From Sulfurovum sp. (GTDB taxonomy: Bacteria; Campylobacterota; Campylobacteria; Campylobacterales; Sulfurovaceae), in the NCBI GenBank assembly GCA_027071315.1, contig JALSUP010000193.1, forward strand, positions 1 through 51,413: 51,413 bases of DNA, given 5' to 3'. Below the pieces are notes generated by a model. It saw only the letters and a list, made by a program, of their open reading frames with translations. It was not told the DNA's origin and did no database searches. Below, in pieces: positions 1,019 through 50,001 of the stretch (positions within the stretch are counted from its first letter, which is position 1; the number at the start of each line of letters is the position of its first letter). A program made the translations under genes and the position numbers.

Positions 1019-1930
1019 ATGGTAACCAAAGACCGATTAACACACTTAAAACAGCTTGAAGCCGAGTCCATCCACATCTTGCGGGAGGTAGCCGCGGAAT
1101 TCACTAACCCGGTGATGATGTACTCAGTAGGTAAAGACTCATCTGTCATGCTGCATTTGGCGATGAAAGCTTTTGCACCTGCAAAGCCGCCTTTCAAGTT
1201 CCTTCACGTAGATACACTCTGGAAATTCCATGAAATGATAGAGTTCCGTGACAACCGTGCTGCCGAACTGGGATTTGACCTGGTCGTCCATTCAAACCCG
1301 GAAGGCATTGAGATGGATATCTCCCCTTTTGAACATGGTTCAAAAGTACATACGGATGTCATGAAAACCGAAGCCCTCAAACAGGCACTCAATATGGGTG
1401 GATACGATGCCGTCATCGGCGGTGCCCGTAGAGATGAAGAGAAGTCCAGAGCCAAAGAGCGTATTTTCTCTTTCCGTGACAAACAGCACAGATGGGACCC
1501 GAAGAATCAGAGACCTGAACTCTGGAATGTCTTTAACACAGCCATCCAGAAGGGTGAGTCTGTACGTGTCTTCCCTATTTCCAACTGGACAGAGCTTGAT
1601 GTATGGCAGTATATTTACCTCGAAGGTATTCCTATTCCTTCACTCTACTTCGCCAAAGAGCGTCCTGTTGTTGAATATGAAGGTACCAAGATACTCGTAG
1701 ATGATGAGAGAATGCCAAAAGAACTCAGAGACACAGCAAAAATGGAAATGGTACGCTTTAGAACCCTGGGCTGCTACCCGCTTACCGGTGCCATCAACTC
1801 CACCGCAGCAACGTTGCCGGAAATTATTAAAGAGATGCTTCTTTCCACTTCAAGTGAGAGAGAAGGCAGACTGATAGACAAAGATAGCGAAGGCGCTATG
1901 GAAAAGAAAAAAATGGAAGGGTACTTTTAG
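1019..1930 (+). CDS. cysD: Sulfate adenylyltransferase subunit 2 (ATP sulfurylase small subunit)
   Basis: This 303-residue protein matches CysD in length and sequence. It catalyses adenylyl transfer from ATP to sulfate, giving APS, in complex with the GTPase CysN. The PP-loop ATP-pyrophosphatase motif is visible as [10 protein letters not shown] at about residues 35-44, followed by HVDTLWKF and the conserved [16 protein letters not shown] segment; the C-terminus has the family motif [13 protein letters not shown]. It is the first gene of the plus-strand unit and ends 1 bp before cysN. CysDN is the sulfate-activating (not dissimilatory) ATP sulfurylase. The downstream genes suggest that its product feeds PAPS for polysaccharide sulfation rather than only cysteine synthesis. 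Confidence 0.95.
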
Positions 1931-1931
1931 A

Positions 1932-3371
1932 ATGTCAACACAAAACAATAAAATAGCTATGGACATTGAGGGATACCTCAAAGAACATGAAAACAAAGAT
2001 ATGCTGCGATTTTTAACCTGCGGATCGGTTGATGACGGTAAAAGTACACTGATCGGCAGAATGCTTTATGACTCCAAAATGATCTTTGACGATCAGCTTG
2101 CAGCCGCAGAAGGTGAGAGTGAGAAGTACGGAACCACAGGTGAGAAGATAGATATGGCATTGCTTGTCGACGGTCTTCAAAGTGAAAGAGAACAGGGTAT
2201 TACGATTGACGTTGCCTACCGTTTCTTTGCCACTGAGAATAGAAAGTTCATCATTGCAGACACTCCGGGTCACGAACAGTACACAAGAAACATGGTCACC
2301 GGTGCTTCTACGGCAGATGTTGCCATTATTCTGATCGATGCACGTAAAGGCATCCTGACACAGACAAGAAGACACAGCTTTATTGTCTCTCTGCTTGGTA
2401 TTGAACATGTTGTCGTTGCGATCAATAAAATGGATCTGGTAGACTTCTCTGAAGATGTTTTCAATGAAATTTCTCAAGCTTACGGTGAACTGGCAAAAGA
2501 GTTGGGTATTAAAAATACTTACTATATGCCGGTCTCAGCACTGGACGGTGACAATGTCGTGGACAGAAGTGCGCATACGCCATGGTATACAGGATTGCCG
2601 CTGCTTGGTCTGCTTGACAGTATGGATATCTCCAAAGAGCAGAAAGCGGAAGATTTCAGATTCCCTGTGCAGTATGTGAACCGTCCGAACCTTGACTTCA
2701 GAGGTTTCTGCGGAACCATTGCTGCGGGTGAAGTAGCTGTGGGTGATGACATTACCGTACTGCCTTCGGGAAAGACGACCAAAGTCAAAAGCATCATCAA
2801 TGCCGGTGACATTACAGAAACAGACAGGTCGGCGACCTGTGAACGTGCCTATGCACCGATGGCCATTACTATTACGACAGAAGATGAAGTCGATATCTCC
2901 CGTGGTGACATGCTGGTACACACAAAAAGTCTCCCGCGTGTTTCAAACTCACTGAAAGTGATGCTCGTCTGGATGGATGAAACGCCGATGGATCTTGACA
3001 GAATGTATGACATCAAGCGTGCCACGTCTGTGGTTTCCGGATCGTTCGAGCACATTAACTATAAAGTAGATGTCAATACCTACGAGAGACAGACAGTACA
3101 TAAACTCGGACTGAATGATATTGCTTCATGTAAAATGGTCCTTACTCAGCCTATCGCGGCAGATGCCTATGAGACAAACCGTCTGACCGGTTCCTTCATT
3201 GTGGTAGACAGAATTACGAACAACACGGTAGGTGCAGGAATGATCGTCGGCGTCAGCAGACGTGAGCAGGATGCAGCGAAATTGTCGGAAAAGTCATATA
3301 CAGATGCAGAGAAAGCACTTAATCAGTATATTAGAGAGAACTTCCCGGAATGGGAATGTAAAGTCGTCTAA
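1932..3371 (+). CDS. cysN: Sulfate adenylyltransferase subunit 1 (GTPase)
   Basis: The 479-residue protein is an EF-Tu-like GTPase that couples GTP hydrolysis to APS formation by CysD. GTPase motifs are clear: G1 GSVDDGKSTL near residue 31, switch region GITIDVAYRFF, G3 DTPGHEQY and G4 NKMD. C-terminal beta-barrel domains follow (RPNLDFRGFCGTI onward). It is a stand-alone CysN, with no CysC kinase fused at its C-terminus as in NodQ-type proteins; two separate kinase genes come next instead. Its stop overlaps the next start by one base, implying translational coupling. Confidence 0.95.
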   Translation: MSTQNNKIAMDIEGYLKEHENKDMLRFLTCGSVDDGKSTLIGRMLYDSKMIFDDQLAAAEGESEKYGTTGEKIDMALLVDGLQSEREQGITIDVAYRFFATENRKFIIADTPGHEQYTRNMVTGASTADVAIILIDARKGILTQTRRHSFIVSLLGIEHVVVAINKMDLVDFSEDVFNEISQAYGELAKELGIKNTYYMPVSALDGDNVVDRSAHTPWYTGLPLLGLLDSMDISKEQKAEDFRFPVQYVNRPNLDFRGFCGTIAAGEVAVGDDITVLPSGKTTKVKSIINAGDITETDRSATCERAYAPMAITITTEDEVDISRGDMLVHTKSLPRVSNSLKVMLVWMDETPMDLDRMYDIKRATSVVSGSFEHINYKVDVNTYERQTVHKLGLNDIASCKMVLTQPIAADAYETNRLTGSFIVVDRITNNTVGAGMIVGVSRREQDAAKLSEKSYTDAEKALNQYIRENFPEWECKVV

Positions 3372-4096
3372 TGTACAGAGAGACCAATAAACGCTCCATC
3401 GTCAAAGGGATCAGCTGGCGTGTGGTCGCAACGACCACCACCATTTTGATCGTCTATTTTTTCTTTGACCGTCTGGATCTCGCGATCGCAGCGGGAATGA
3501 TAGAGACGGTATTGAAAGTCGGACTCTACTGGGCGCATGAACGTGCCTGGTTCAAGATACGCTGGGGTAAAAAGAAGATCGAACCTTTTAACCTCTGGTT
3601 CACAGGTCTTCCTCTTTCGGGTAAAACGACCATTGCAGACAAAGTCTATACGGAACTTGAAAAACTTCATATTCCCATAGAGCGTCTGGATTCCAAAGAT
3701 ATCCGTGACCTTATTCCCAATATCGGTTTTACACGTGAAGACAGAAACAGACACATGCACCGTATCGGATTTTTGATACAGAAATTGCAGAAAAATGCTA
3801 TTTCCACAGTAGCCACTTTTGTTTCTCCCTACAAAGAATCGCGTAAAGCGATCCGTGATATGGTTCAGAACAATATTGTTGTGTATGTGAAAGCAGATAT
3901 TGAAACCTGTAAGGCACGTGACTACAAAGGGGTGTATGAAAAAGCGATGAAGGGTGAACTTCAAAACTTTTCAGGGGTGAATGATGTCTATGAAGAGCCA
4001 CAGTATGCTGAAGTCACTGTCGACACAGACAAACTGTCAGCCGATGAAGCAGCTGCGATCATTGTAAATTATGTAAAGAAGCATTATGTCAAATAA
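3371..4096 (+). CDS. DUF2061 membrane domain fused to a divergent adenylylsulfate kinase
   Basis: In this 241-residue protein, residues about 5-64 match the DUF2061 family: [14 protein letters not shown], a hydrophobic segment around 20-48, then [14 protein letters not shown]. Residues about 70-240 are an APS-kinase fold. The P-loop is GLPLSGKTT (79-87) instead of the usual GLSGSGKST. The substrate motif LDGDNIR of true CysC is LDSKDIR here. APS kinase phosphorylates APS to PAPS; whether this copy is active is uncertain given these changes. It overlaps the canonical cysC by 11 bp. The likely role is a membrane-anchored kinase or a partner that brings PAPS synthesis to the inner membrane (inference). 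Confidence 0.8.
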
Positions 4097-4691
4097 AAAT
4101 ATTGTATGGCATGACCATCATGTCTCTAAAAATGAACGTTCGAAACTTAAAGATCAGAAACCCTGTATTCTCTGGTTTACGGGCTTAAGCGGCTCCGGGA
4201 AATCAACAGTTGCCAATGCGGTAGAGAGTCAACTCCTGGCTCTGAAGAAGCATACCTATCTGCTTGACGGTGATAACATTAGAATGGGACTCAACAAAGG
4301 CTTGACCTTTTCAGATGAAGACCGTATTGAAAACATTAGACGTATCGGGGAAGTCTCCAAGCTCTTTGTGGATGCCGGTACCATTGTATTGACCGCATTC
4401 ATCTCTCCTTTTCAAAAAGAGAGAGATGTGGTCCGTGCTTTGGTGGAAGAGGGTGAATTCATAGAAGTGTTCATCGATACCCCATTGGAAGTCTGTGAAT
4501 CCCGTGACCCTAAAGGCTTGTATGAAAAGGCACGTAAAGGGGAGATACCGAATTTTACAGGGATCTCTTCTCCTTATGAAGCACCGGTCAACCCTGAAAT
4601 TCATGTAAAGACAGCAGAATTGAACATAGAAGCGTGTGCAGAACAGATCGTGAGCTATTTAAAAGAGAAAGGCTATATAAATGTTAGATAA
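4086..4691 (+). CDS. cysC: Adenylylsulfate kinase
   Basis: This canonical 201-residue APS kinase phosphorylates APS to PAPS. Visible motifs are Walker [10 protein letters not shown] near residue 34, [26 protein letters not shown], the [10 protein letters not shown] segment, and the [18 protein letters not shown] lid region with SPYEAP. Every family hallmark missing from the preceding paralogue is present here, so this copy probably carries the activity. The start overlaps the fusion gene and its end overlaps cysQ by 11 bp. Confidence 0.95.
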
Positions 4692-5430
4692 AATTGATTT
4701 AAATGATATAGAAAAGATCGCACTTGATGCGGGGAAGACCATTATGGAAATTTACAACAGAGATTTTTCCATAGAGTACAAAGATGACAAATCTCCCTTG
4801 ACAGAAGCGGATCTTGCCTCCAATGATGTGATCATGCAGGGACTTGAAAAGTATGGCATTCCTATTATGTCCGAAGAGGGTAAGACCATTGCCTATGATG
4901 AAAGAAAAGACTGGGAGTATTACTGGTGTATCGATCCGATCGACGGGACAAAAGAGTTCATTAAGAAAAATGGTGAATTCACGGTCAATATTGCTCTTAT
5001 CCACAAAGATGCGCCGATCCTGGGTGTGGTGTATGCACCGGCACTGGATGATATGTATGCAGCAAAAAAAGGAAGCGGTGCCTTTAAGAACGGTGAAAAG
5101 CTTCCTCTGCAGAGTAATCCTGACATGAAAGAGAAAATGTCTGTCGTGGCTTCAAAGTCACATCTTTCTGAAGAGACACAGGCTTTCATTGATGCGCTTG
5201 ATACCAAAAATATTGAGCAGGTCTCCAAGGGAAGTTCACTGAAACTCTGTATGGTCGCCGAAGGTGAAGCAGACATTTACCCGAGACTGGCACCGACGAT
5301 GGAGTGGGATACCGCTGCAGCAGATGCCGTGGTCAGAGAGAGTGGCAAGATGACTTATCAGTTTGAAAATGATGAGCCGGTGGTCTATAACAAAACGGAT
5401 CTTTTGAATCCGTGGTTCGTTGTTAAATAA
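4681..5430 (+). CDS. cysQ: 3'(2'),5'-bisphosphate nucleotidase
   Basis: A 249-residue enzyme of the inositol-monophosphatase superfamily that converts PAP to AMP and so removes the by-product of PAPS use. Metal-binding motifs are present: [18 protein letters not shown] (the Glu site), the core [23 protein letters not shown] and, near the C-terminus, [15 protein letters not shown]. It lies in the same unit as cysDNC. PAP is made by PAPS reductase or by sulfotransferases; neither is encoded in the window, so the consumer of PAPS lies elsewhere. Confidence 0.93.
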
Positions 5431-38671: not shown

Positions 38672-39820
38672 TCAGGGAAAACGCAAGGTGAAAGTGCTTC
38701 CTTCTCCCAGTTCGGAATTGAGTGCTATTTGAATGTTGTGTTCCTCGCAAATGTGTTTGACAATGTTCAAGCCCACACCAAACCCACCTGAGTAGCTTGT
38801 GCCCCGTTTGAACTTTTCAAAGATTTCTTTCTGTTTCTCTTTTTCAATACCAATACCCTCATCGCGGATGGTTAGTACTCTTCCCTCTAGTGAAATGCTC
38901 ACCGTCGATCGTGGAGAAGAGTACTTAATGGCATTACTGATGAGGTTACCAAAAAGCAGGGTCAGCTGTGACTTGGAGACGATGCATTGTGTCTCTTCTA
39001 CCGTGACATCAAAGTGAATACGTTTAATGTCTGCCAGAGGTCTGTAGTAAGCGACACTCTCTTCCAAAACTGTTTTGACATCAAGCGGTTCTGAGACCTC
39101 TTTTCTCTCACTAAAGTTGAGGTAGGTCAAAGAGCGGTAAATGTCATAAAGCTGTTTGGTCGAGATGGAGACATTGTTCATCATTTTGGGCGTACAGGCA
39201 CCTGTTTTCAAGGCTTGATCGGCAGTCATGGTAAGTGACGTGATGGGTGTGTTGAGCTCATGGGTAATATCATTGATGAAACGTTCTATCTGTGCGACTC
39301 TCTGCTGTACCGGGCGTAAAAAAAGTTTGGAGAGCATCCAGGCTATGAGCATGACGGCTGCAAGTACAAGTCCGAGTGCAAGCAGTACATTTTGTTTGAG
39401 GTTTTGGAGCTGTCCCTGAAGTGTGTCTGACTGCACGACCACGTAGGCGACATTTAAGTGTTCACGGGGAGCATCGGAAATGAGAATGTTGTAGCCATCC
39501 GTTTTGAAATAGCCAGGTTTTACTGTGATGTCCTTCTTGACAAGTCTGCCTTCAACCACTTCTCCTTTGGTGTCTATGAGTGCCAGAGAGATATCTTTGG
39601 GTATTTCAAACTCTTTAAGCGGCATGCCATGCATATGTGCCATGATGATCTCACCCGATTTTTTGTCTGCCAGGTGTTCGAGTCTATAGTGTATTTCATT
39701 TTCCAGGGAGTGTGCCTGTGCTGTGTAGTACCAAAATCCTATGAGGGAGATAAAAAAGAAGGAAGAGACAATGTAGAGCCCCAGAAAAGAGTAAAAGGAT
39801 TTCTTTTCGAGATCATTCAT
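38672..39820 (-). CDS. Copper-island sensor histidine kinase
   Basis: A 382-residue membrane kinase. TM1 at about 12-32, a periplasmic sensor region of about 110 residues, TM2 at about 145-165, then HisKA with FINDITHELNTPITSL (phospho-His 187) and HATPase_c with GNLISNAIKYSS (N), IRDEGIGIEKE (G1), FKRGTSYSGGFGVGLNIVKHI (F/G2). The motif HMHGM (62-66) in the sensor region could bind a soft metal. It overlaps the response regulator gene by 8 bp. The likely signal is periplasmic copper or silver, as for CusS (inference). Confidence 0.92.
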   Translation of the reverse strand: MNDLEKKSFYSFLGLYIVSSFFFISLIGFWYYTAQAHSLENEIHYRLEHLADKKSGEIIMAHMHGMPLKEFEIPKDISLALIDTKGEVVEGRLVKKDITVKPGYFKTDGYNILISDAPREHLNVAYVVVQSDTLQGQLQNLKQNVLLALGLVLAAVMLIAWMLSKLFLRPVQQRVAQIERFINDITHELNTPITSLTMTADQALKTGACTPKMMNNVSISTKQLYDIYRSLTYLNFSERKEVSEPLDVKTVLEESVAYYRPLADIKRIHFDVTVEETQCIVSKSQLTLLFGNLISNAIKYSSPRSTVSISLEGRVLTIRDEGIGIEKEKQKEIFEKFKRGTSYSGGFGVGLNIVKHICEEHNIQIALNSELGEGSTFTLRFP

Positions 39821-40466
39821 AGCGGTAGCCTAAGCCTCTTTGTGTGATGATCTTTTCGTTTCCTATGACTTCACGCAGGTTTCGTATGTAGGAGCGCAGG
39901 GTGGCATCGCTTGGCAGGGCATCAAACTCCCAAATATTCTGTACCAGCTCCTCCTGTGAAATGAGCCTTTGAGGATGGGCAATGAAATACTCCAGCATTT
40001 CACACTCTTTGGGTCGAAGGGCTGTTTCGTTCGTACCGTCAGAAACGATGTGCTTTTTTGGAAAGTAAGTGAGTTTTTCTGTGAGTTTGACTGGTTTGTC
40101 CTGCTCTATGTGGAAGAGCACTTTACTCTTTTCTATGCGCAGTCTCAGCTCTTCAAGCTCAAAAGGTTTGCGAATGTAGTCATGTGCCCCGACATCGAAA
40201 CTCTCTTTGAGATGCTTTGTGTCTTCATAGGCAGTGATGATGATGGCCGGAGTGGTATCGTTAAAAGACCTAAGCTCTTCGAGCAGTTCAATACCGCTTT
40301 TACCCGGAACATTAATGTCGAAGATAAAAAGGTCATAAGACTCATCATCTATGAACTCCTGTGCCTCTTCTGAGTCAAAAGCCCGGTGTGTGGTGTAGTA
40401 TTGCTGCAGATAGTCCGTGACGATGTCCCCCAGGACCGGATCGTCTTCCATAAGTAGTATTTTCAT
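39813..40466 (-). CDS. OmpR-family response regulator, probable master regulator of the copper island
   Basis: 217 residues: a receiver domain (acidic pair D8-D9, phosphoacceptor Asp50 in FIFDINVPGKSG, conserved Lys in RKPFE) and a C-terminal winged-helix DNA-binding domain (ETALRPKECEMLEYFIAHPQR, LPSDATLRSYIRNLREVIG, ITQRGLGYRYE). OmpR-type regulators bind direct repeats of about 11 bp, and exactly such repeats occur at six promoters around it. It lies 40 bp after the P-type ATPase gene and probably shares that promoter, making it autoregulated. Confidence 0.92.
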   Translation of the reverse strand: MKILLMEDDPVLGDIVTDYLQQYYTTHRAFDSEEAQEFIDDESYDLFIFDINVPGKSGIELLEELRSFNDTTPAIIITAYEDTKHLKESFDVGAHDYIRKPFELEELRLRIEKSKVLFHIEQDKPVKLTEKLTYFPKKHIVSDGTNETALRPKECEMLEYFIAHPQRLISQEELVQNIWEFDALPSDATLRSYIRNLREVIGNEKIITQRGLGYRYE

Positions 40467-40506: not shown

Positions 40507-42747
40507 CTATAATTTTACATTTTTAAGCCGCAGTGAATTGCTAATGACCGAAACCGATGAAAAACTCATGGCTGCCGCAGCAATGACCGGGGAGAGCAGT
40601 ATGCCAAAGAAGGGGTAGAGCACACCGGCGGCCACCGGAACGCCCAAGGCATTATAAATGAAGGCAAAAAAGAGGTTCTGTCGTATGTTCCCCATGGTGG
40701 CACGGCTGAGTTTGATGGCTCTGACGATACCGGTAAGATCCCCTTTGACCAGGGTCACTCCGGCACTCTCCATGGCGACATCGGTACCTGTACCCATGGC
40801 AATACCCACATGTGCCTGTGCCAGAGCAGGGGCATCGTTGACCCCGTCTCCTGCCATGGCAACCTGTTTACCCTCTTTTTGAAGTGCTATGACAACTTTG
40901 GCTTTCTCTTCGGGAGAGACTTCCGCCTGAACCCTGTCGATGCCAAGTGTGTCAGCCACGGCTTTGGCAGTGGTTTCATTGTCTCCTGTGAGCATCACAA
41001 CTTCTATACCTTCTTCATGCAGAGCATGAATAGCTTCAGCCGTACTCTCTTTAATAGGATCCATCACACCCAAAATACCGGCTGCTTTTCCTTCAAGGGC
41101 TATGAGCATGACGGTCTGTCCCTCTTTTCGGTAGGTTTCAGACAAAGAGGAGAGGGCAGAGGCATCAATGTGGAGTGCTTCCATCAGTTTGTAGTTCCCT
41201 ATGGCAACAGAGAGACCATTGACCTCTCCGGTGACACCCTGACCTGTGACAGAGTTGAAATTGTCTGTTTTTTCCAGCGTCAGACCTCTCTCTTTAGCAC
41301 CCTCAACGATGGCTTCTGCCAAAGGGTGTTCACTTGCTTTTTCCAAAGAGGCAACGGCACTTAAGAACAGCGCTTCATCGACACCTTCCAGTACTTTGAC
41401 GGTGACAAGTTTAGGAGCACCTTCTGTGAGTGTCCCGGTTTTGTCCACCACGAGGGTATCGACTTTTTCAAGTATCTCCAGGGCTTCCGCATTTTTGATG
41501 AGCACACCCATAGAGGCCCCTTTCCCCGTACCGACCATAATGGAGACAGGGGTTGCCAGCCCAAGCGCACAGGGACAGGCAATGATGAGCACAGCAACTG
41601 CCGAAACGATGGCATAGGCAAGACGGGGCTCAGGGCCAAAAAAATACCAACCTATAAAGGCAAGTATGGCTATGAGGACAACGATGGGTACAAAATAGCT
41701 GGAGACAAGGTCTGCCAGTTTCTGTATGGGTGCACGTGAACGCTGTGCCTGTGCTACCATATTGACGATCTGCGAGAGCAGGGTATCGGCACCGACTTTT
41801 TGTGCTTCTATGAGCAGGGAACCTGTCGCATTGACGGTAGCCCCTATGACTGTGTCACCCGATTTTTTAGCCACGGTCACAGGCTCTCCCGTGACCATGG
41901 ATTCATCGATGTTACTTTCCCCTTCTGTGACGACCCCGTCCACGGGTATTTTGTCACCCGGACGTATGCGCAGTATGTCGCCCACTTTGACTTCTTCAAG
42001 AGCAATGTCCTCTTCGCTTCCGTCCTCTCTGACAATGCGTGCCGTGTTGGGAGCGAGTCCGAGCAGTGCCTGTATGGCTGTGTTGGTTTGCGAACGGGCA
42101 CGGAGTTCGAGTACCTGACCCAAGAGCACTAAGGCCACAATGACTGCTGCGGCTTCAAAATAGACATGCACCAGACCGCCGTCCAGCTGCATTTTTGGCG
42201 GAAAGATGTCAGGGAGGAGAAGTGCCACCATACTGTATGTCCATGCAGCGCCCACACCCAAAGCAATGAGCGTGAACATGTTGAGGTTCCACGTTTTAAC
42301 TGACTGATAGCCTTTGACATAAAAAGGCCAGCCACCCCAGAGTACGACGGGTGTTGCCAGTGCAAACTCTATCCATTGGACCATGGACATGGAGAGCCAT
42401 GCAGGGAGCAGGTTCGGTGCAAGATCCGCTATTATAGCCAATAGAAATACAGGCAGTGCCAAAGCAGTACTGATTTTAAAACGTCTGCTCATGTCGAGAA
42501 GTTCTGCATTTTCTGCTTCTTCTGCCTCTGCGATCATTGGCTCAAGTGCCATCCCGCAAATGGGACAGTTCCCCGGACCCTCCTGCTGAATTTCAGGATG
42601 CATGGGGCAGGTATAGACAGCAGAGCCATGTGTCACTTTATGATGATCGCTATGGTGTGTATGTTCATGTGCTTCATGATCATCAGGTGTATAAATGTTT
42701 TTTATGAGTGGTCTACAGCTTTCACACTCTTGTTTCTCTTCATTCAT
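40507..42747 (-). CDS. copA: P1B-type copper-translocating ATPase
   Basis: A 746-residue pump moving Cu(I) out of the cytoplasm. The N-terminus is His-rich ([15 protein letters not shown]) and carries a heavy-metal-binding domain YTCPMHPEI...[12 protein letters not shown] (44-70) instead of the ferredoxin-like CxxC domains. Then come the actuator TGEPV, membrane metal motif [11 protein letters not shown] (CPC), phosphorylation site DKTGT, HP dipeptide (SEHPLAEA), [10 protein letters not shown], and the Met/Ser in the last segments ([19 protein letters not shown]) typical of Cu(I) pumps. It is the first gene of the ATPase-regulator-kinase operon. Confidence 0.95.
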
Positions 42748-42783: not shown

Positions 42784-42815
42784 ATGATAGTGCGAAAGCG
42801 TGCATAGTGTGTGCA
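42784..42815 (-). promoter_or_regulatory. Copper-box promoter of the copA-regulator-kinase operon
   Basis: Minus-strand repeats TGCACACACTA (42815-42805) and TGCACGCTTTC (42804-42794), a 4-bp gap, then TATCAT (42789-42784). The second repeat starts 15 bp before the -10, as in the other boxes. The ATPase ATG is 37 bp further on. Confidence 0.7.
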
Positions 42816-42862
42816 TGTGATACTGCCCGACAGAAAACAACATGCTTCTGTGAATCCATGAC

Positions 42863-42927: not shown

Positions 42928-44379
42928 ATGAAAAGAAGAACATTTATTACAATGAGTTCTATTACCGCACTTTGGGTATTGACAGGATGTGGTGGTGGAT
43001 CGGGAGGTGACAACGGTATGTCGGGCGGAGGGGATAATCCCAGTGACGATACACCCGTAAAAAAAGGTACTCTGCCTATTCCTGAACTTATTAAAGGAAC
43101 AGAGAGAAGTGGTGTGAATCATTATGACCTAAATATTGTTGAGGCAGAGCATGAATTTTTTGAAGGTGTGAAGACAAATACCTATGCCATAGACAGTACT
43201 TACCTGGGGCCGACACTGCTTTTGGAAAATGGTGAAGATGTTTCACTTAACTTCAGCAACAGACTTCAGGAAGAAACGACCATGCATGGTCACGGTATGC
43301 ATGTCCCCGGCAATATGGACGGTACAGCACACCAGCCCATTGCAGTAGGTGCTACCTGGTCTGCACAATACAGCGTTGACCAGAATGCCTGTACCAACTG
43401 GTATCACCCGCACTATATGCATAAAACAGCACCCCATGTCTATCAGGGGCTTGCCGGTATGATCATTATTGAAGATGATGAGATCAAAGCACTTGATCTG
43501 CCAAACCGTTACGGGATAGATGATATTCCTCTGGTGCTGCAGGACAGATTTTTCTCAGCCGATAAAACGCGTCTTGACTACTCCCCCTCAACTATGGAGT
43601 TAAGAATGGGGTACGTAGGAAATGTTTTCATAGCCAATGGTGCCATCAACCCCACCTTTGAAGCCGAAGACAAAGAGATACGTTTCCGTGTCTTAAACGG
43701 TTCAAACTCTACAGTGTATGATCTGGGATTCAGTAATGACATTGTCTTTAAGCAGATCGGTGGAGACAACTCTTTACTCGAAAGTCCGGTCAGTATGAGC
43801 AGGCTGGTTCTTTCACCGGGAGAACGTGCGGAGATCGTTGTTGACCTTACAGATGAAAAGGGAAGTTCTTTTACCCTGCATGAATACAGAAATGATCAAA
43901 CGTTTTTGACCATCAATGTCAGTAATGATGCAACAGAATTTACGGCTGTTCCCTCAACGCTGGCTGCGCTTGAACCGGTAGATGCTTCACTTGCTGTCAG
44001 AACACGGCCGTTCACGCTGGAAATGACAGGCGGTATCTTTACCATTAACAGAAGAGAGATGGATATGATGTTTATTAATGAAACCGTCCCTCTGGGAGAT
44101 GTTGAGATATGGGACGTGACAAACAAAATGGGGATGGACCACAATTTCCATATTCATGCTACGCACTTTAGGGTCATAGAGCGTAACGGCAGTGCTGCCA
44201 ATGTACGTAACAATGAAAAAGGCTACAAGGATGTTGTGTATCTTCAGGGAAATGAGAGGGTGAAATTACTGGTAAAAATGACAGACTATACCACGGACGC
44301 TTCTGCGCCATACATGTATCATTGTCATTTTCTTGAACATGAAGATAACGGTATGATGGGACAGTTTATTGTTGTGTAA
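42928..44379 (+). CDS. Multicopper oxidase 2, predicted Tat-exported lipoprotein
   Basis: A 483-residue CueO-like oxidase, closely related to the copies at 31234 and 44926. The N-terminus joins a twin-arginine motif (KRRTFITMSS) to a lipobox (LTGC) and a Gly/Ser-rich tether, so the enzyme is probably held at a membrane surface. Copper sites: HGHGMH, WYHPHYMHKTAPH, MDHNFHIHATHF and HCHFLEHEDNGMM. The likely role is cuprous oxidase in detoxification. AAGGGG precedes the ATG, and it has its own copper-box promoter. Confidence 0.92.
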   Translation: MKRRTFITMSSITALWVLTGCGGGSGGDNGMSGGGDNPSDDTPVKKGTLPIPELIKGTERSGVNHYDLNIVEAEHEFFEGVKTNTYAIDSTYLGPTLLLENGEDVSLNFSNRLQEETTMHGHGMHVPGNMDGTAHQPIAVGATWSAQYSVDQNACTNWYHPHYMHKTAPHVYQGLAGMIIIEDDEIKALDLPNRYGIDDIPLVLQDRFFSADKTRLDYSPSTMELRMGYVGNVFIANGAINPTFEAEDKEIRFRVLNGSNSTVYDLGFSNDIVFKQIGGDNSLLESPVSMSRLVLSPGERAEIVVDLTDEKGSSFTLHEYRNDQTFLTINVSNDATEFTAVPSTLAALEPVDASLAVRTRPFTLEMTGGIFTINRREMDMMFINETVPLGDVEIWDVTNKMGMDHNFHIHATHFRVIERNGSAANVRNNEKGYKDVVYLQGNERVKLLVKMTDYTTDASAPYMYHCHFLEHEDNGMMGQFIVV

Positions 44380-44455: not shown

Positions 44456-44776
44456 TTACTTTCCGCTGTTACATTTACCCTGGGCTTTCATGTTCTTCAT
44501 GTTACCCTGAGCACTGTCAGCACCTGTAGAAAGTTTGTTTGCATGTTCCAATTCAAGCTCTGCTTTGGTCGGCTTTTTTGCCGACTTTTTCATTTTTGCT
44601 TTCATCTTTCCGCTCTGGTCTGCATTACATTTTCCGGCAGCTTTCATTTTTGACATATCTCCTGCAAAACTGTCAGCACCTGTGGCTGTTTTGTTTGCAT
44701 GCTCCAACTCTGTGGCTGCAGAATTTGCATATACCAGTCCTATAGTCAATAAACTCGCTAAAATTACTTTTTTCAT
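44456..44776 (-). CDS. Small periplasmic protein with two 29-residue repeats ending in GKCN
   Basis: A 106-residue protein of unknown family. The signal peptide MKKVILASLLTIGLVYA is followed by two copies of a 29-residue unit at 23-51 and 75-103, consensus ELEHANK-x-x-TGADS-x-x-G-(D/N)-M-x-x-MKA-x-GKCN. A Lys/Met-rich spacer lies between. One Cys, one His and two Met per repeat suggest copper binding. I start at ATG 44776, since upstream in-frame sequence to 44884 covers the promoter. It has its own copper-box promoter, divergent from multicopper oxidase 3. Confidence 0.8.
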   Translation of the reverse strand: MKKVILASLLTIGLVYANSAATELEHANKTATGADSFAGDMSKMKAAGKCNADQSGKMKAKMKKSAKKPTKAELELEHANKLSTGADSAQGNMKNMKAQGKCNSGK

Positions 44777-44827
44777 CGTGTGTCCTTTAAAGTGTTTTTT
44801 CAGAGGTTCGTCTCTCTGTACATCCGC

Positions 44828-44859
44828 ATTATAAGAGAACTGTGTGCATGGAGTGTGCA
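44828..44859 (-). promoter_or_regulatory. Copper-box promoter of the 29-residue-repeat protein
   Basis: Minus-strand repeats TGCACACTCCA (44859-44849) and TGCACACAGTT (44848-44838), 4 bp, then a perfect TATAAT (44833-44828). Separated by only 7 bp from the oppositely oriented box of multicopper oxidase 3. Confidence 0.75.
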
Positions 44860-44866
44860 AGTTGTA

Positions 44867-44898
44867 TGCACACTTCATGCACACTTTAAAACTATAAT
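44867..44898 (+). promoter_or_regulatory. Copper-box promoter of multicopper oxidase 3
   Basis: Repeats TGCACACTTCA (44867) and TGCACACTTTA (44878), 4 bp, then TATAAT (44893-44898). The best-matching pair in the window. The gene starts 28 bp after the -10 with AAAGGAG before its ATG. Confidence 0.78.
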
Positions 44899-44925
44899 TC
44901 TTCTACATATTTAAAGGAGAAAACA

Positions 44926-46371
44926 ATGAAGAACAGAAGAGAATTCTTAACATTAAGTGGAGCAGCAGCACTTTATTTACTGACAGGATGCAGCGATGGT
45001 GGAACAAATCCCGGAGGTGGGGGAGGCGATACCCCTCCTGGTGAAGAGACTGCGAATGCCCTGCCTATTCCGGAATTGAAACTTCCGGTTGAAAGAGCGG
45101 GTGTTAAACATTATGACCTCAATATTATAGAGTCACAGCATACCTTTTTTGAAGGCGTGAAAACAAATACCTATGCCATAGACAGTACTTACCTCGGGCC
45201 AACGTTGTTATTGACAAGAGGTGACAAGGTTTCTTTGAACTATACGAACAAACTTTCTGTTGAAACGACCATGCACGGACACGGTATGCATCTGCCAGGT
45301 GAAATGGACGGTACGGCACACCAGCCCATAGCCGTAGGTGGAACATGGTCTGCAAAATACACCGTTGACCAGACAGCCTGTACCAACTGGTACCACCCGC
45401 ACTACCTGCATCAAACAGCACCGCATGTCTATCAGGGACTGGCGGGTATGCTCATCATTGAAGATGATGAGTCACGCAGTCTGGACATTCCAAAGCGTTA
45501 CGGAGTAGATGATATACCTTTGGTACTGCAGGACCGTTTCTTCTCTGCGGACAGAAGAAAGATCGTCTATGATCCAAGTATGGATCAGCTCGATATGGGT
45601 TATGTGGGCGATACTTTCATTACCAACGGTGCCATCTCCCCTGTATTCGATGCGGAAAACAAAGAGATTCGTTTCCGTATTTTGAACGGTTCGAATTCGA
45701 CCATGTATGACCTGGGTTTCCGTAATGCCAAAAGTTTTAAGCAGATCGCTACGGACAATGCCTTCCTTGAAGAACCTATAGAGATGAACCGTCTCCTGCT
45801 CTCTCCGGGAGAACGTGCCGAGATCGTTGTGGATTTCACTGACGATATGGATGCTGAGTTCACCCTTTATGACTTCATGCACAGTCAGACTTTCCTGACG
45901 GTCAATGTCTCTAAAAGTGCCACGGCAAGTACCACGTTACCGGCGGTACTGACCACACTTGACCCTGTACCTACAGCAACGAACAGCAGACAGTTCACGT
46001 TGGGAATGCGTGGTATGGATACCTTTACGATCAACGGGAAAACAATGAATATGAACCGTATTGATGCGGCACTCTCCAGAGGTGATGTGGAAGAGTGGGA
46101 GATCATTAACGGTACGGGAATGAACCACAATTTCCACATACACGGTACACACTTCAGGGTCGTTTCACGTGACGATGACCCGGCAGCGGTCGCTGAAAAT
46201 GACAAAGGTTACAAAGATGTGGTCTATCTGCCGCCACACAGCAGGCTTAAATTCATTGTGGAGATCCCGAATGATGATGTGACCGCAGACGCTGCCAACC
46301 CGTATATGTTCCACTGTCACTTTCTTGAACATGAAGACAATGGTATGATGGGACAATTTACCGTCAGTTAA
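44926..46371 (+). CDS. Multicopper oxidase 3, predicted Tat-exported lipoprotein
   Basis: A 481-residue paralogue of multicopper oxidase 2. Twin-arginine motif (NRREFLTLSG), lipobox (LLTGC, Cys about 23), then a Gly/Pro-rich tether. Copper motifs HGHGMH, WYHPHYLHQTAPH, MNHNFHIHGTHF and HCHFLEHEDNGMM are intact. It likely oxidises Cu(I) at the membrane surface. A hairpin follows its stop, and the cytochrome gene 68 bp further on has no copper box of its own, so the two may be co-transcribed. Confidence 0.92.
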   Translation: MKNRREFLTLSGAAALYLLTGCSDGGTNPGGGGGDTPPGEETANALPIPELKLPVERAGVKHYDLNIIESQHTFFEGVKTNTYAIDSTYLGPTLLLTRGDKVSLNYTNKLSVETTMHGHGMHLPGEMDGTAHQPIAVGGTWSAKYTVDQTACTNWYHPHYLHQTAPHVYQGLAGMLIIEDDESRSLDIPKRYGVDDIPLVLQDRFFSADRRKIVYDPSMDQLDMGYVGDTFITNGAISPVFDAENKEIRFRILNGSNSTMYDLGFRNAKSFKQIATDNAFLEEPIEMNRLLLSPGERAEIVVDFTDDMDAEFTLYDFMHSQTFLTVNVSKSATASTTLPAVLTTLDPVPTATNSRQFTLGMRGMDTFTINGKTMNMNRIDAALSRGDVEEWEIINGTGMNHNFHIHGTHFRVVSRDDDPAAVAENDKGYKDVVYLPPHSRLKFIVEIPNDDVTADAANPYMFHCHFLEHEDNGMMGQFTVS

Positions 46372-46378
46372 AATCTTC

Positions 46379-46405
46379 TGAGAAATGTTTAATACACATT
46401 TCTCA
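46379..46405 (+). terminator. Perfect hairpin between multicopper oxidase 3 and the cytochrome gene
   Basis: TGAGAAATGT (46379-46388) pairs with ACATTTCTCA (46396-46405), 10 of 10, with a 7-nt loop. There is no long T tract after it, so it may attenuate or protect the transcript rather than end it fully. Confidence 0.55.
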
Positions 46406-46439
46406 GGCATAATAAACAAATAAACCAAAGGATACACCT

Positions 46440-47024
46440 ATGAAAAAAATAACACTCACAGCGGCACTGCTGCTGTTCAGTACGCTCACACTTTCAGCGA
46501 ACAGTGACGGCAATGCTGTCTACGAGGCGAACTGTAAAGCCTGCCACATGCTAAAACCAATGATGGATAAGCAGAAAATGATGCAGATGAGCCCGCAGGA
46601 ACGTATGTCCATGAAAGAGAAAATGATGAAGACGATGAAAGCACCGCCGATGAGCAAGGTCTCCGCAAAGCTTAAGTTTGATCTTAAGGGTGACAAAGAG
46701 CAGATGGTTTCTTTCATTAAAGATTACATTGTCAACCCGAGTGCAGAGAAGTCAAAATGTATGCCGATGGCACTTAAAAAGTTTGGTGTCATGCCTGCCA
46801 TTGGTAAGACAATGAGCGGTAGCGATGTTGATACTGTGGCAAAATGGATGGTAGACAATTTTGATGAGAAATGGGACCCCAATGATCAGAATATGGCCTG
46901 TAATGCAAATGAGGGTAAAAAGATGAAATGCGGTCAGGGAAAATGCGGATCCGGAATGGCAGAAAAAGCACCTAAAAAAGAGAGTGCCATGAAGTGTCAG
47001 GCAGGTAAATGCGGAGGGAAATAA
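46440..47024 (+). CDS. Met-rich single-haem cytochrome c with C-terminal GKCG motifs
   Basis: A 194-residue exported protein (signal peptide MKKITLTAALLLFSTLTLSA) with one haem site CKACH (32-36). Helices very rich in Met and Lys follow (MMDKQKMMQM, MKEKMMKTMKAPPM), suited to Cu(I) binding. The distal haem ligand could be Met in FGVMPAIGKTMS. The last 40 residues carry the repeated motif MKCxxGKCG twice. The cytochrome could take electrons from, or pass them to, the multicopper oxidases (inference). AAAGGA precedes the start. Confidence 0.82.
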   Translation: MKKITLTAALLLFSTLTLSANSDGNAVYEANCKACHMLKPMMDKQKMMQMSPQERMSMKEKMMKTMKAPPMSKVSAKLKFDLKGDKEQMVSFIKDYIVNPSAEKSKCMPMALKKFGVMPAIGKTMSGSDVDTVAKWMVDNFDEKWDPNDQNMACNANEGKKMKCGQGKCGSGMAEKAPKKESAMKCQAGKCGGK

Positions 47025-47064: not shown

Positions 47065-47114
47065 CTCTCCTTCATTTCTACTATTTTATTTCACAAAATC
47101 CACATTATTTTATA

Positions 47115-47146
47115 TGCACACTTTATGCACGTACTTTGAGTACAAT
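47115..47146 (+). promoter_or_regulatory. Copper-box promoter of the DUF302-PcoA-PcoB operon
   Basis: Repeats TGCACACTTTA (47115) and TGCACGTACTT (47126), 4 bp, then TACAAT (47141-47146). The second repeat is the least conserved of the set, but the spacing is identical. Confidence 0.68.
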
Positions 47147-47174
47147 AGCCCTATCAAACTTAAAAGGGTCAAAG

Positions 47175-47561
47175 ATGATTTACACAATTACAAGCAGCGC
47201 CACACTTGAAACTGTTAAAGAAGAACTTGAAGCCAAAGCAAAAGAAGTAGGTTTTGGTCTCTTAAATACTTATGAATTCAAAAAAATTTTAAAAGGGAAA
47301 GGCTTTCCTATAGAAAAAGACATTAGCGTCTTTGAACTTTGTAATCCGGCAGGGGCACAGCAGGCATTGGAGTATGATTCAGAAATTTCAGTTTATCTTC
47401 CTTGTCGTATCTCGGTTTATCAGGAAAAGGGACAGACTGTACTCTCTACCATTGGGCTAGATGAGATTATGACGACATTTCATGTTGAGGAGCGTTTTGC
47501 TTCATATATGAATATTCTTTTTGAAAATTTAAAACAGATCATGCACAGTTGGGACGACTAG
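47175..47561 (+). CDS. DUF302 family protein
   Basis: A 128-residue protein of the DUF302 family: MIYTITSSATLETVKEELEAKAKEVGFGLLNTYEFKKIL, then FELCNPAGAQQAL (the conserved CNP-type motif) and SVYLPCRISVYQEKGQTVLSTI. The family is a small ligand-binding fold of unknown role, often near metal or redox genes. There is no signal peptide, so it should be cytoplasmic. I start at ATG 47175, with AAAGGG 9 nt upstream; an upstream in-frame start at 47136 overlaps the promoter. It leads an operon with the PcoA-type oxidase. Confidence 0.85.
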   Translation: MIYTITSSATLETVKEELEAKAKEVGFGLLNTYEFKKILKGKGFPIEKDISVFELCNPAGAQQALEYDSEISVYLPCRISVYQEKGQTVLSTIGLDEIMTTFHVEERFASYMNILFENLKQIMHSWDD

Positions 47562-47593: not shown

Positions 47594-49297
47594 ATGCAAA
47601 GACGGACATTTATAAAGGGGATGGCAGTCGGTTCTGTGATGGGACTGACCGCCATTGACTTAGAAGCAAAATCAACAGCCAAAACAAAACGCAGTAACAG
47701 TGTACTCAGAGGAAAAGAATTTTTCCTTGACATTGACTACACGACAGTCAATATGACAGGCAAAACCGCGGTAGCAACAACGGTCAACGGACAGCTTCCC
47801 GGACCGACACTGGTTTGGCAGGAGGGTGATACCATTACCCTACATGTGACGAACCATCTTAAAAGATCTTCTTCCATTCACTGGCACGGCATCATTCTGC
47901 CTGCCCCAATGGATGGTGTACCGGGTATCTCATTTAACGGTATTCCTCCGGGGAAAACATTTACTTACCGTTTTAAAGTCAGGCAGCATGGAACCTACTG
48001 GTACCACAGCCATTCCGGCTATCAGGAACAGACAGGAGTATATGGCAGCATTATCATTAAACCTAAGAAAAAAGAGCCTTTCTCTTATGACAGAGACTAT
48101 GTGGTGTTACTCTCCGACTGGAGTGATGAAAAGCCTTCTGCCATTTACAGAAAACTCAAACTTTCCAGTGACTACTACAACTTTAACCAGCGTACCGTAG
48201 GGGACTTCTTCTCTGAAGTTAAGAAAAAAGGTTTAGGTAATGCTTTTTCTGACAGGAAAATGTGGAACAGTATGCGTATGAGTGACCGTGACCTCTCCGA
48301 TGTCACAGGCTACACCTACACTTACCTGATGAACGGTAAAAACCCTGCCACACAATTTAAAGCACTCTTTAAAAAAGGTGAGAAGATACGCCTGCGTTTC
48401 ATTAACGGGGCAGCTATGAGCTTTTTTGACGTACGCATCCCCGGTTTGAAGATGACCGTGGTCGCAGCAGACGGAAACCACATTAAACCGGTAAGTATTG
48501 ACGAGTTCCGTATAGGTGTGGCTGAGACTTACGATGTCATCGTACAGCCAAGATCCAACAAAGCCTATGCTATTTTTGCCCAGAGTATTGAACGTTCAGG
48601 CTATGCCATGGGTTCACTTACACCTTCAGGTTCAACGCTTGCAAAAGCACCAAAAATGGATAAGCCACAGGCTTTGACCATGGCAGACATGGGCATGAAA
48701 ATGGCTAAAGAGGGTAAAATGAAAATGTCCAAAATGCCTATGAAAAAGTACCGCTGGTCTGCTATGGAAAAGCAGAAATACCCCATCACCAAACTGCCTA
48801 TGGCAAAAGGAGTACAGAGTACCATGATGGCAATGGACCCCAAATACAGACTTGAAGACCCCGGTGTGGGACTGAGAAATAACGGACGAAAGGTCCTGAC
48901 CTATGCCGACCTGAAGAACCGTTACTCTACACGAAGAGAGAGAAAACCCGACAGAGAGATAGTCTTGCATCTTACAGGGAACATGGAGCGTTATATGTGG
49001 TCCATCAACGGCATCAAGTATGCCGATGCCAAGCCGCTTCAGTTCCACTACGGAGAGCGACTGCGTATTACCTTCATTAATGACACGATGATGAACCACC
49101 CCATGCACCTGCACGGTATGTGGTCAGACCTGGAAACGGGAGATGACAACCATCTGGTACGAAAACACACCATTATCGTACAACCCGGTTCAAAGATCAG
49201 CTACCGCGTGACGGTTGATGCCAAAGGTGGTTGGGCCTATCATTGTCACCTGCTTTACCACATGGCAGGTATGTTTAGAAAAGTCGTAGTGGCGTAA
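47594..49297 (+). CDS. Copper-resistance multicopper oxidase, PcoA/CopA type
   Basis: A 567-residue periplasmic oxidase of the plasmid-type Pco/Cop system, distinct from the three CueO-like copies. Tat signal QRRTFIKGMAVGS. Copper sites: HWHGIILPAPMDGVPG, GTYWYHSHSGYQEQTG, MNHPMHLHGMWSDL and WAYHCHLLYHMAGMF. A Met-rich segment (about residues 365-415: MADMGMKMAKEGKMKMSK, MPMKK, TMMAMDP) is typical of PcoA and binds Cu(I). It is followed after 11 bp by the PcoB-type gene, its usual partner. Confidence 0.94.
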   Translation: MQRRTFIKGMAVGSVMGLTAIDLEAKSTAKTKRSNSVLRGKEFFLDIDYTTVNMTGKTAVATTVNGQLPGPTLVWQEGDTITLHVTNHLKRSSSIHWHGIILPAPMDGVPGISFNGIPPGKTFTYRFKVRQHGTYWYHSHSGYQEQTGVYGSIIIKPKKKEPFSYDRDYVVLLSDWSDEKPSAIYRKLKLSSDYYNFNQRTVGDFFSEVKKKGLGNAFSDRKMWNSMRMSDRDLSDVTGYTYTYLMNGKNPATQFKALFKKGEKIRLRFINGAAMSFFDVRIPGLKMTVVAADGNHIKPVSIDEFRIGVAETYDVIVQPRSNKAYAIFAQSIERSGYAMGSLTPSGSTLAKAPKMDKPQALTMADMGMKMAKEGKMKMSKMPMKKYRWSAMEKQKYPITKLPMAKGVQSTMMAMDPKYRLEDPGVGLRNNGRKVLTYADLKNRYSTRRERKPDREIVLHLTGNMERYMWSINGIKYADAKPLQFHYGERLRITFINDTMMNHPMHLHGMWSDLETGDDNHLVRKHTIIVQPGSKISYRVTVDAKGGWAYHCHLLYHMAGMFRKVVVA

Positions 49298-49308
49298 GGA
49301 ATAAAATA

Positions 49309-50001
49309 ATGAAACACATAAAACAAACACTGTTCGGTCTGGCCGCACTCTTGGCTTTAAGTCAAACACTTCAGGCAGCAGGCGGAGATGACCCTTTAAG
49401 AACCATGCTCATCATGGATAAACTGGAAATTCTCAATAACGATGAAAACACGCGTGCCTGGGAAGGCAGTTTTTACATGGGCTATGACCTGGATAAACTT
49501 TATGTTTACAGTACGGGTGAAGCCACAGCAGACGGTTTGGAATATTCGCAAAACGAAGTGGTCTACTCCCGAGCCATTGCTCCCTTTTGGGACATTCAGG
49601 CAGGTGTGAATTATGACAAATACGCCAATGCTTCAAGAACCTGGGGAGAGATCGCCATTTCAGGACTGGCACCTTACTTCTTTGAAAGCAGGGCTGCCCT
49701 GTTAGTCAACGGAGAAGGAAATATCGGATTGAGACTTGATCTTGAGTATGAAGCATTGCTGACGCAAAAGCTCATTTTAACCCCTTCTTTCGAAGCAGAG
49801 TTCTACAGCAAAGATGATCCGGAGTTACAACTGGGTTCCGGTCTCTCTTCTCTGGAAGCAGGCTTGCGTCTGCGTTATGAAATCGTCAGAGAGTTCGCAC
49901 CTTACATCGGTGTCACCTGGGACAGGAATTTTGGAAACACCTATGACTACAATCCCGTCAATGAAACTGATCTGCTTGTGGGTGTGAGGTTTTGGTTCTA
50001 A
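49309..50001 (+). CDS. Copper-resistance outer-membrane protein, PcoB/CopB type
   Basis: A 230-residue beta-barrel protein with signal peptide (MKHIKQTLFGLAALLALSQTLQA) and C-terminal Phe (GVRFWF). It matches the CopB family: the segments AWEGSFYMGYDLDKLYVYSTGEA, AIAPFWDIQAGVNYDKY and FAPYIGVTWDRNFGNT are characteristic. It lacks the long Met-rich N-terminal part of Pseudomonas CopB. Together with PcoA it handles copper in the periplasm and outer membrane. Last gene of the DUF302-PcoA-PcoB operon. Confidence 0.92.
   Translation: MKHIKQTLFGLAALLALSQTLQAAGGDDPLRTMLIMDKLEILNNDENTRAWEGSFYMGYDLDKLYVYSTGEATADGLEYSQNEVVYSRAIAPFWDIQAGVNYDKYANASRTWGEIAISGLAPYFFESRAALLVNGEGNIGLRLDLEYEALLTQKLILTPSFEAEFYSKDDPELQLGSGLSSLEAGLRLRYEIVREFAPYIGVTWDRNFGNTYDYNPVNETDLLVGVRFWF

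Follow-up and report, generated by a model that had tools for sequence, protein, structure and literature searches.

Two proteins encoded in a 51,413-nt stretch of DNA (the window) from the sulfur-oxidising bacterium Sulfurovum sp., a 106-residue repeat protein and a c-type cytochrome with a Lys-Cys tail, are real, conserved and linked to copper. It is proposed, with a probability of roughly 0.6, that both are exported copper-stress proteins, which hold periplasmic Cu(I) via free side chains and not via thiooxazoles made by an MNIO enzyme (DUF692, PF05114). By the features examined, the two proteins stand outside the bufferin family; they most likely act in the manner of thiol/Met copper buffers. 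The more surprising part of the results is the occurrence of HvfX and Lys-Cys peptides without MNIO.

The repeat protein (44456-44776, minus strand) starts with the ATG at 44776 and contains two E-x-E-H...M-x-x-M-K-x-x-G-K-C units of 29 residues each. The first unit (44624-44710, minus strand; residues 23-51, ELEHANKTATGADSFAGDMSKMKAAGKCN) terminates with AGKCN and the second (44468-44554, minus strand; residues 75-103, ELEHANKLSTGADSAQGNMKNMKAQGKCN) with QGKCN. The repetition is also visible in the DNA, as an 86-nt pair of 72% identity (44469-44554 and 44625-44710). The cytochrome (46440-47024, plus strand, 194 residues) ends in two MKCxxGKCG motifs, MKCGQGKCG (46923-46949) and MKCQAGKCG (46989-47015), both on the plus strand. 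The sequence was read again and the GKC motifs were found where the original prediction had placed them. A putative N-terminal Sec signal peptide was read by eye in both proteins, and on this reading of the N-terminus their export is predicted. Searches of Pfam and NCBIfam gave no family match for the window's repeat protein, and no relative of its family was found among PDB sequences. The AlphaFold model shows short helices in a mostly unstructured chain (pTM 0.19); its low confidence (pLDDT 55.6) makes the site geometry unreadable. A match to Fer2_BFD [2Fe-2S] in 3 of 22 family members (best E 5.8e-5, 23.8 bits against a cut-off of 26) was rejected as chance.

The repeat-protein family has no database entry and was found in Sulfurovum and a few Sulfurimonas-group genomes. 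A family-wide search gave a match in 28 of 175 Sulfurovaceae genomes, a count that includes three non-members (G090 and G091, with 30-residue matches only, and G100, where the match is a Lys-Cys peptide). In an order-wide sample, 7 of 298 genomes gave a match, all within the same family as the window. The scan of a named genome collection yielded 24 loci under the titles Sulfurovum, Sulfurimonas and other Campylobacterota MAGs. The window protein and 21 of these 24 (L105-L107 being excluded) were aligned (alignment A2). Across the 22 proteins, repeat 1 is invariant in D-M-S-x-M-K-A-x-G-K-C, x positions aside, and repeat 2 in M-x-x-M-K and G-K-C. The His of E-x-E-H is present in at least 90% of them in both repeats; EH is absent or altered in L098. 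Cys conservation in orthologues, which had been named beforehand as the point on which the prediction could fail, thus held, GKC being invariant throughout the alignment. Over 52 GKC sites, Gly is encoded by four codons, Lys by two and Cys by two; since these codons vary synonymously, conservation acts on the protein, and the repeat GKC motif exceeds chance. In 28 distinct repeat proteins the number of Cys tracks the number of repeats (two Cys in 19, three in 7, five in 1, and one in 1 partial protein), and every Cys sits in GKC, except in L025. These 28 were chosen by a motif expression requiring EH, MxxM and GKC, so per-position counts from the set would be circular and only the Cys numbers were taken. 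The L025 protein (L025:1480-1800, minus strand) is a chimaera, in which a single EH...GKC repeat is followed by a Lys-Cys tail nearly matching that of the L043 cytochrome from a different genome; the two tail modules are identical at 32 of 40 residues.

The repeat-protein gene is part of a copper island. It diverges from a gene for a CueO-like multicopper oxidase (44926-46371, plus strand), and a second oxidase of this type lies at 42928-44379 (plus strand; both assigned by Pfam/NCBIfam). The island also encodes a P1B copper ATPase (40507-42747, minus strand; TIGR01511, 611.6 bits, cut-off 397), an OmpR-type response regulator (39813-40466, minus strand; Pfam Response_reg and Trans_reg_C) and an adjoining reading frame named a sensor kinase from sequence and position (38672-39820, minus strand). 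Further on, all on the plus strand, are a DUF302 protein (47172-47561; PF03625, 54.8 bits), a CopA-type multicopper oxidase (47594-49297; TIGR01480, 808.6 bits, cut-off 478.95) and a CopB outer-membrane protein (49309-50001; PF05275, 235.8 bits). Relatives of the island's genes were found near the repeat-protein gene in all 20 fetched regions (19 genomes), so the linkage is conserved, and a hand count gave the P1B ATPase in 14 of the 20. The sparse regions hold an oxidase only (L072), the regulator and kinase only (L076, L078) or DUF302 only (L082). DUF302 proteins recur in the family's copper islands and are likely cytosolic.

The repeat-protein gene and the gene of the facing oxidase (44926) have a common promoter region, and between them lies an operator-like element of four TGCA half-sites with 11-bp spacing (44844-44882). 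The 17-bp motif ATGCACACTTYATGCAC occurs four times in the 51-kb window against 0.27 expected, each time at copper genes; one copy lies between the P1B ATPase and oxidase 42928 genes (42800-42816, minus strand, two mismatches) and another upstream of the DUF302 gene (47114-47130, plus strand, no mismatches). Identical four-site phasing at a nearly equal distance was seen in L064, L066 and L068. Of 21 upstream regions, 7 gave no match to the operator when up to 4 mismatches were allowed. The relaxed operator TGCAC-N6-TGCAC, with one mismatch allowed, gives 8 sites against 3.84 expected, which is not decisive. The OmpR-type regulator (39813-40466) is the candidate reader of this element.

The same residues and neighbours bear on another explanation, namely that both proteins serve thiol-redox or disulfide chemistry, in response to the oxidative stress that copper causes, and do not bind copper. 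The Cys are few and regularly spaced, and the Lys-Cys peptide locus described below includes a ferredoxin-thioredoxin-reductase/rhodanese protein, as this explanation would have it. However, the number of Cys is odd in three-repeat proteins, each Cys is accompanied by conserved Met and His that disulfide chemistry does not need, and copper-gene neighbours are present in every one of the 20 fetched regions. We consider a purely redox role unlikely and a copper role, as originally suggested for both proteins, likely.

The cytochrome combines the haem site CKACH with a Met-rich insert and the Lys-Cys tail, and matches Pfam Cytochrome_CBB3 at 27.3 bits (cut-off 27). The C..CH of the haem site is invariant across 22 aligned cytochromes, as is expected of a c-type cytochrome. 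One more Cys, Cys107 (46758-46760), lies outside both the haem site and the tail; it is invariant in the 22 and present also in tail-less homologues. Homologues occur in 98 of 175 family genomes; the best 30 loci were fetched and 22 of these were aligned (alignment A3). By hand count, the tail is found on 23 of the best 30 loci, 20 of them with copper-gene relatives inside the fetched flanks, and a copper-gene neighbour accompanies none of the 7 tail-less cytochromes; the counts are not independent, because all loci are related and L047 and L048 are near-identical. The 3 other tailed loci have no copper-gene relatives, wider regions included. Residues 153-193 of the window cytochrome match the NCBIfam model of HvfA (NF050188) at 18.1 bits, under the cut-off of 95. 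Among the 22 aligned cytochromes, 8 match this model at E <=0.1 (best E 8.4e-7) and 6 match NF050137, whose cut-off is exceeded by the cytochromes of some relatives. The repeat protein matches neither model, and neither it nor the window cytochrome has a DUF2282 match in Pfam at E <=0.1.

CusF is a small periplasmic Cu(I) carrier with Met/His ligands. Carriers of this type are small and exported, use Met/His ligands and have their genes in copper islands, next to those of CueO-like oxidases and P1B ATPases, and the repeat protein, predicted to be exported and with Met and His as candidate ligands, resembles them in this; it differs from them in having no Pfam match, a fully conserved Cys and a mostly unstructured predicted chain. 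With the Buf_EGKCG/oxazolin families (HvfA; captophorins such as fontiphorin) the two window proteins share putative export, Cys in repeated Gly-Lys-Cys and a likely copper role, whereas the window genome lacks MNIO and DUF2063. Units of 17 residues with two EGKCG are described for those families (PMC12452194), in contrast to 29 residues and one Cys in the repeat protein; the closing motif of the repeat proteins, GKCN or GKCG, also lacks the Glu that EGKCG has. The bufferin likeness advanced in the original prediction therefore stands for the cytochrome tail and not for the repeat protein, given this repeat structure and the empty Pfam and NCBIfam searches. Like the Buf1/Cytochrom_C fusions listed in that paper, the window cytochrome joins a Cys-rich putative copper module to a c-type cytochrome; the fusions carry DUF2282 (PMC12452194), in place of which the window protein has its C-terminal Lys-Cys tail. 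Buf_EGKCG genes occur without MNIO in only 67 of 2583 genomes; neither Campylobacter nor Campylobacterota occurs in the text (PMC12452194). Another report assigns 5-thiooxazole to EGKCG peptides whose production involves MNIO and PME1, and names DoxX proteins as possible participants in copper binding (PMC12668002). In Nitratiruptor, also of the Campylobacterota, the gene NIS_RS04915, which encodes a cytochrome c and adjoins a gene for an SO_0444 Cu/Zn transporter, is reported to be up under both Cd and Cu (PMC10092412). Titles and abstracts of the openly licensed literature gave no description of the repeat family, nor of HvfX in the absence of MNIO, and little was found in this literature on copper handling in these bacteria.

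The genome that carries the window has a second locus of interest (L166, G000:C126:1-9000, positions 1285-5243), encoding Lys-Cys peptides, an HvfX-like DoxX protein, a lipoprotein and, divergently, a GMC/Gluconate_2-dh3 pair. HvfX is a maturation protein of copper-binding RiPPs. The DoxX protein (C126:3935-4378) scores 121.3 bits against the NCBI HvfX model, above the cut-off of 80, and the Lys-Cys peptide (L166:4412-4663), like the cytochrome tail, matches HvfA weakly and below the cut-off. The locus is bufferin-like but has neither MNIO nor DUF2063, and it is kept across the genus. A special likeness between this peptide and the cytochrome tail was rejected as proof of common origin: the 10-mer they share appeared in 0 of 2000 full shuffles but in 174 of 2000 shuffles preserving Lys-Cys words, against which it is not exceptional. 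In the wider family, a DoxX gene is present in 10 of 12 extended small-peptide loci. EGKCG-type Cys peptides are regarded as markers of MNIO chemistry, and this association breaks down in Sulfurovaceae. NF050137 (KCGExKCG) is exceeded in 25 of 175 genomes, 23 of them without MNIO (the two with it are G019 and G059); its matches include small exported peptides, lipoproteins, NosL, copper cytochromes and one cytochrome c that is a lipoprotein with EGKCG at its N-terminus, and the window genome has none. For HvfX, 79 of 175 genomes have a match above the cut-off, and 77 of the 79 have no MNIO match; in some of them the HvfX match may be just a second DoxX paralogue.

Where the peptide gene has MNIO as its neighbour in the loci of three relatives, the window genome has the GMC flavoprotein pair (GMC gene, C126:1291-2958). 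The Lys-Cys motifs might then be matured by another enzyme, for example this pair, with the cytochrome tail and perhaps the repeats as further substrates. This is suggested by the presence of the locus in the same genome, with a DoxX that passes the HvfX cut-off, and by the GMC and DoxX genes lying close together on one contig in 53 genomes (from hand reading of lists). The 20 GMC/DoxX regions fetched all contain Gluconate_2-dh3, a lipoprotein and at least one Lys-Cys peptide between or beside the two genes, and 15 of 20 have an FTR/rhodanese gene; however, these regions were selected for the closeness of GMC and DoxX. Moreover, in genus g11 (G170, G156, G171) the peptide/DoxX pair is located away from GMC, so the latter may be a mere neighbour, and GMC enzymes are not known to modify peptides. 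Maturation by another enzyme such as this pair is regarded as improbable.

The search for MNIO (PF05114) in the whole window genome, whose completeness is rated at 99.76%, gave zero matches, and so did the search for its partner DUF2063 (PME1/HvfC), which extends to the genome the earlier statement that no DUF692-family enzyme is encoded in the window. Among the 175 family genomes, the same search detected PF05114 in three (G019, G029, G059) at E 1e-85 or better, with small Lys-Cys (GKCG) or Cys-Gly peptides adjoining the MNIO gene. None of the 28 genomes that match the repeat protein gave a hit, and neither did any of 13 other records reached via named loci, some of which duplicate the same genomes. 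Modification of the Cys by an MNIO whose gene lies elsewhere in the genome, in the way of bufferins and oxazolins, is thus very hard to sustain, despite the EGKCG-like cytochrome tail, the HvfA matches of the aligned cytochromes and the HvfX-type DoxX protein. Between the two options offered at the outset, the unmodified thiol buffer is favoured for this reason over a substrate of an enzyme encoded elsewhere. Three points are additions to the original prediction: the EH...MxxM residues present in each repeat, the operator-like motif shared by copper genes, and the Lys-Cys peptide/HvfX locus.

On the favoured reading, that of Cu(I) held by free side chains, each 29-residue unit of the repeat protein would be one simple candidate Cu(I) site, in which a flexible chain presents one Cys, two Met and, as a rule, one His. 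With two or three such units, the protein may serve as a Cu(I) buffer or carrier of low structure. The protein would probably be produced under a CopRS-like two-component system, jointly with the facing multicopper oxidase, to which it may pass Cu(I). The Lys-Cys tail of the cytochrome, of the same type as the small Lys-Cys peptides of the genome, probably holds Cu(I) beside the redox centre. Copper induction, copper binding and the choice of partner oxidase are inferences.

A broader and more tentative proposal, which we hold to be possible and somewhat doubtful, is that Sulfurovum and its relatives have an MNIO-independent bufferin/oxazolin system, with exported Lys-Cys peptides and HvfX-type DoxX and without HvfB (MNIO) or HvfC (DUF2063). 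The Lys-Cys module would be a portable copper tag that has come to sit on a copper-island cytochrome, NosL, a DUF2059 protein and other carriers, and the peptides would act as free thiols or be matured by the flavoprotein pair. If this is correct, HvfX can function apart from the formation of thiooxazoles, and these proteins are misnamed by NCBI as "oxazolone/thioamide-modified RiPP metallophore". The MNIO-less genomes offer a natural test of unmodified Lys-Cys motifs and of HvfX on their own.

Two further carriers of Lys-Cys modules were observed. NosL-type copper chaperones that carry KCGAGKCG or KCGAGKCGE as a tag at the N-terminus are encoded in MNIO-less genomes (L151:99-836, minus strand; L152:5905-6639, plus strand). 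A DUF2059 protein (L042:720-1289, minus strand) has an N-terminal KCAQGKCGG module and is encoded close to a tailed cytochrome and CopB.
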